Below, in pieces: positions 1,044 to 1,305 of a DNA stretch of 64,000 nt; position 1 is the first letter of the stretch; each line of letters opens with the position of its first letter. The DNA comes from Candidatus Marsarchaeota archaeon (lineage in GTDB: Archaea > Micrarchaeota > Micrarchaeia > Micrarchaeales > Micrarchaeaceae), in the NCBI GenBank assembly GCA_023485295.1, contig JAMCZQ010000006.1:1-64000 (forward strand), read 5' to 3'. The notes under the pieces are model-generated. The model worked only from the letters and a program-made list of their open reading frames with translations, did no database searches and was not told the origin of the DNA. The translations under genes and the position numbers were made by a program.

Positions 1044-1305
1044 TACCAAGCCACCCAAGTGAGGTCTTAGTGAGGCAGCGCCGCTGGCGTTTTCGAACTA
1101 AGGTTTCGCAAGGTGGGCTAAGGTATAACAAGGTATCCGTAGGGGAACCTGCGGATAGATCACCTCAACAATATAAGTGTGCGGGCCATATATCGGTACC
1201 TGCATAAATCCTCAAGACTGCAATTTTTGCTTCCCAGCGCGAGCCATTTTCTTTTTTCGAAACGTTTTTAGCTATTTAAAACAATAAATGCACGCAAGTG
1301 ATAGA

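Follow-up and report, generated by a model that had tools for sequence, protein, structure and literature searches.

Pairing is kept while the bases change at three decoding-site base pairs of 16S rRNA in an order of Micrarchaeota

In every ribosome the pairs G1405-C1496 and U1406-U1495 in helix 44 (h44) of 16S rRNA and the pair C18-G917 in the central pseudoknot (h2) are commonly treated as near-invariant (E. coli numbering is used throughout). Elsewhere in rRNA, classical helix covariation is well described: both strands of a helix change together, and single-pair steps are visible in relatives. At the decoding site itself the closest described systems are A-site mutants made in the laboratory. 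In the passages of PMC3140962 that deal with them, U1406 and U1495 are aminoglycoside contacts, the double mutants include U1406C/U1495G and U1406C/U1495A, and the first of these is reported, citing Hobbie et al., to have almost no effect on the MIC. For the DPANN archaea, mismatches of their 16S to 25 primers, and hence taxa missed by PCR, have already been published (PMC8407392). That report concerns the same gene and the same practical consequence as the 16S considered here, and its passages on the subject describe mismatches rather than a compensated structural change at the decoding site. A literature search in which few subscription journals were covered returned no earlier report of a compensated change in decoding-site h44 in DPANN and none of a change in the C18/G917 pseudoknot pair.

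The window, i.e. the whole stretch of 64,000 nucleotides that was analysed, begins inside a 16S gene in which all three upper h44 pairs are replaced. The features referred to below are the following.

1 to 1168, + strand: 3' portion of an archaeal 16S rRNA gene, spanning positions 826-1478 of model RF01959 (577 bits and E 9e-169 with cmscan)
37, + strand: C at E. coli position 917, G elsewhere (C917 in 76/76 order members, G917 in 21/21 other Micrarchaeota)
213 to 731, + strand: intron of the 16S gene, about 519 nt long and holding an ORF, boundaries ambiguous inside a CCGG repeat (from length, place and a 520-nt insert in the Rfam alignment)
1041 to 1128, + strand: helix 44, a canonical stem in the fold (MFE -36.9 kcal/mol, z -3.58)
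1044 to 1046, + strand: E. coli 1404-1406, UAC and not CGU, 5' strand of upper h44
1123 to 1125, + strand: E. coli 1495-1497, GUA and not UCG, the 3' strand of upper h44 and partner of 1044-1046
1158 to 1167, + strand: 3' tail GAUCACCUCA, with A for E. coli C1539 (A or G in 66/66 order members, C in 32/32 of the outgroup)

The score of 577 bits is well above the RF01959 gathering score of 50, with the 5' side of the gene lost at the contig start (model position 826) and the remainder split by the intron. For comparison, the complete 16S of Candidatus Micrarchaeum sp. A_DKE scores 1333.5 bits across model positions 1-1478. A search of the whole 885-kb source genome gave a single SSU match, the window 16S, and this status as the sole SSU suggests that it is expressed and used in the ribosome. 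We consider it probable that the gene encodes the functional rRNA of an archaeon of the genus Micrarchaeum, phylum Micrarchaeota, and that its h44 pairs drift by compensatory change. Many genera carry an intron at the same place in 16S, and further 16S introns occur at other sites; the ORF in the window intron (166 aa) has no Pfam match, and its segments YMLGIYRCNAG and YFAALFDCMGG are reminiscent of a LAGLIDADG endonuclease in degenerate form.

The original prediction was that T-A-C at 1044-1046 and G-T-A at 1123-1125 replace the C-G, G-C and U-U pairs by U-A, A-U and C-G with pairing kept. Both the sequence and the model alignment give exactly these bases, and the three pairs are the same in the fold and in the alignment. 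In the covariance-model alignment (RF01959) both h44 arms are gap-free around the changed bases, and the free fold of 1041-1128 pairs U1044-A1125, A1045-U1124, C1046-G1123 and C1047-G1122; together, these two results rule out a register shift by one. A1408 (window 1048) faces A1492/A1493 (1120-1121) in the fold, which is the usual arrangement. The changed pairs are thus close to the decoding adenines, but they do not directly adjoin them as had been stated: the intact pair 1407-1494 separates 1406-1495 from A1492/A1493.

The same site is replaced in relatives. The closed genome of A_DKE (NZ_CP060530.1), which belongs to the same genus and was assembled from a co-culture with PacBio and Illumina data into a chromosome of 989,838 bp (PMC8975820), carries TAC/GTA, as does a relative with a single contig of 952,257 bp. 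In the genus, the six genomes whose site could be read are all UAC/GUA, this state is common to 21 sampled genomes from eight genera and both families of the order, and the exact sequence ACACACCGCCTACCA is present in 20 of 301 Micrarchaeota genomes. A survey of the order, comprising the 89 genomes in which both h44 strands were read (267 pair cells), gave the states UGC/GCA (37 genomes), UAC/GUA (21), CGC/GCG (16), UGU/UCA (13), CGG/CCG (1) and CGU/UCG (1). Every one of the 267 cells for the three pairs is either Watson-Crick or the ancestral U-U; when the 3' strands were dealt anew in 2000 shuffles, canonical cells averaged 181 and never exceeded 203. Pairing, and not base identity, is conserved at 1404-1497, 1405-1496 and 1406-1495 in this order. 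The claim that the change is compensated and lineage-wide, and reflects neither error nor decay, is thereby borne out. Among the 89 genomes the three pairs show neither G-U nor any other intermediate, suggesting that fixation is fast or that the intermediates are harmful, a point that tells against neutrality.

The change at 1406-1495, a pair that is Watson-Crick in 75 of the 89 genomes and in both families, has come close to fixation in the order. In the wider Micrarchaeota survey nearly all families outside the order have CGU, with a single UGU. A maximum-likelihood 16S tree from which the six h44 columns were left out requires no fewer than 20 state changes, with 12 at 1404, 6 at 1405 and 4 at 1406; since several family-level forks are weak, these counts are a minimum on one tree. 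A strict order of steps, in which A1405 arises only after U1404 and C1406, agrees with 21/21 order members, but only some six changes underlie it and it does not hold outside the order, so we do not claim it. Genome G031, which has a very long 16S branch, has G1406-C1495 and not C-G, so that here the pair reached a Watson-Crick state independently. Around the changed pairs, A1408, A1492, A1493, 1402-1403, 1407-1494 and 1498-1501 are invariant in the order members read. Further compensated pair swaps are found in the order 16S at E. coli 252-274, 341-348, 963-972, 1069-1106 and 1265-1270, positions at which all other Micrarchaeota read have the E. coli base.

To place these states among other organisms, 84,980 species genomes were scanned for loci with intact flanks and a base other than G at 1405; the scan covers assembled 16S, and 1406-C together with G1405 in other phyla does not enter its counts. 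It returned 81 loci, five of which are chance matches outside rRNA and 76 real 16S, and 75 of the 76 are compensated, the lone uncompensated locus being AAC/UCG. CAU/UUG accounts for 55 of the 76 (Diapherotrites, other archaeal MAGs, Amesbacteria, Cardinium and a few more bacteria), UAC/GUA for 17, UAU/UUA for two (Huberarchaeum and one bacterium) and CAC/GUG for one, a Diapherotrites MAG. All UAC/GUA records that can be placed are Micrarchaeota, including some MAGs labelled Marsarchaeota. Because compensated non-G1405 loci occur in several phyla, G1405-C1496 is not strictly universal: an A-U pair at 1405-1496 is rare but not unique, and the universality of the standard pair had been overstated, given that 55 other species genomes have A-U there and leave 1404 and 1406 as they were. 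In the Diapherotrites, Amesbacteria, Cardinium and the others, G1405-C1496 is exchanged for A-U with full compensation, as in the order; these variants keep C1404-G1497 and U1406-U1495, whereas the order replaces all three pairs. None of the variants outside Micrarchaeota, UAU/UUA and CAC/GUG included, has all three replaced, so that within the non-G1405 loci with intact flanks in the 84,980 genomes the joint replacement appears confined to Micrarchaeota.

The order also differs elsewhere in the ribosome. Position 18 lies outside the window and was read from relatives with a complete 5' end: it is G and not C in every order member with a readable 5' end (GTCGATGCTGC versus GTTGATCCTGC; G031 reads GTTGATGCCGC). 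Together with C917, this G18 means that the central-pseudoknot pair C18-G917 is flipped to G18-C917 across the order, and the flipped pair is present even in G168, which retains the ancestral h44. U14 is changed to C in nearly all order members. In the 530 loop, G527A is found in 65/65 order members read and in some of the outgroup, and C518G in 63/65 and in most of the outgroup; C522-A527 is an uncompensated mismatch with no Watson-Crick pair. The usual motif of the uS12 decoding loop is PNSA; the Micrarchaeota sampled, outgroups included, mostly have PHSG and in places PSSG or PNSG. At the 3' end, the anti-Shine-Dalgarno core CCUCC is shortened in the whole order to CCUC followed by A or G (window 1163-1167), and SD-dependent initiation may therefore be weakened. 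Some genera end in CACCTA or CACCTT.

We suggest that 1404-1497, 1405-1496 and 1406-1495 may change identity in this order provided that pairing is kept. The ancestral C-G, G-C and U-U have become U-A, A-U and C-G, and single-pair steps between these states survive in living relatives. The ribosome would need a regular short stem that places A1492/A1493 and the P-site mRNA backbone, and not particular bases. The decoding adenines and the flanking bases are constant, and the loop of 23S H69, the bridge partner, is the same in the order and the outgroup, which argues that the stem is kept as a stem. Exchanging U-U for C-G would stiffen this stem and make up for one or two lost G-C pairs: nearest-neighbour energies of model hairpins are -9.0 kcal/mol for CGU/UCG, -13.6 for UGC/GCA and -11.6 for UAC/GUA, so that the exchange more than pays for the lost G-C pairs. 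The route of change would be near-neutral compensatory substitution, fixed in small-genome, host-dependent lineages. Beside H69, CTTAAGGTAGCG is intact in the outgroup, whereas several members of the order have CTTGAGG or CTTTAGG (A1927, our own count).

A possible sign of coordinated adaptation, as opposed to drift, is that 1406-1495 is nearly fixed and that C518G, G527A and the uS12 PHSG loop also differ. In its strongest form, this reading holds that the decoding and initiation centre of the order has been remodelled as a whole, by a Watson-Crick h44 where the U-U platform had been, G18-C917, C518G, C522-A527, the uS12 loop and the shortened anti-SD, with different fidelity or start-site choice and measurably different decoding or initiation rules. 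Several independent conserved parts have indeed changed together in or near the order, and Watson-Crick 1406-1495 extends to both families. However, the uS12 change and C518G predate the h44 change, being already present in outgroup Micrarchaeota, the decoding loop of uS12 shows no change particular to the order that follows the h44 state, and 1404-1497 keeps switching, with its 12 changes, as it would under drift; we regard coordinated remodelling as unlikely. Protein partners as drivers were rejected because the uS12 loop differs in outgroups too and aIF1A and Dim1 are retained. Constraint might instead have relaxed once a factor, or an enzyme modifying rRNA, that recognised G1405 or U-U had been lost; the small genomes and the order-wide change would suit this. 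The two factors tested, the Dim1/KsgA family and aIF1A, are however each present in 14/14 genomes, no candidate enzyme was identified, and such a loss seems to us distinctly improbable.

The pair 1404-1497, the most changed of the three, is not the main aminoglycoside contact, and this speaks against selection by natural aminoglycosides, which the role of U1406 and U1495 in drug contact would favor. The engineered U1406C/U1495G pair, which is the same C-G pair as in the order, reportedly leaves the MIC nearly unchanged in the passages cited above (PMC3140962), so that drug tolerance cannot be claimed for the order and is doubtful, and such selection is very improbable as the cause. The comparison also sets a single engineered pair against a natural change of three pairs in a lineage. 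As for sequencing error, a chimera or a pseudogene, the window 16S does lie at a contig edge without its 5' half. Yet independent assemblies and genera agree, the compensation is perfect and no second 16S was found in the source genome; for the lineage, the TAC/GTA shared between the closed A_DKE genome and other relatives excludes sequencing error, an rRNA pseudogene was rejected since the helix pairs are kept and no intact second copy was found, and there is next to no chance that an artefact of this kind explains the site. We therefore favor compensatory drift under conserved pairing. What is new is not the kind of change, since compensatory covariation is known in rRNA, but the sites at which it occurs, which are usually taken as invariant: the order differs from usual rRNA covariation in that the pairs are those of h44 next to the decoding adenines and in that the non-canonical U1406-U1495 becomes C-G or G-C.

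In this tiny acid-loving archaeon and throughout its order, evolution protects pairing rather than the exact letters at these h44 pairs. A living order that changes such pairs, those of h44 repeatedly, with pairing kept serves as a mutagenesis experiment, done by nature, on the requirements of the decoding site, and the co-cultured A_DKE provides an organism for work on structure and fidelity. The 16S of A_DKE also identifies the 'universal' primers that fail on these archaea, together with the reason. It had been expected that the 1406 primer would miss them; the three mismatches to 1392R/1406R are there, but they lie at the 5' end of the primer (13-15 from its 3' end) and should be less harmful than those to 1492R, at 4, 5, 6 and 17 from the 3' end. 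Arch915R has one mismatch, third from the 3' end, Arch21F has four, and 515F and 806R have two each. Judged by these positions, the damaging mismatches are predicted to be those to 1492R, Arch915R and Arch21F, and not those to 1392R/1406R. In genome G000 the LSU gene was found only as a 308-nt piece at a contig end; the rRNA genes of the A_DKE chromosome are unlinked, with SSU at about 204 kb and LSU at about 972 kb.
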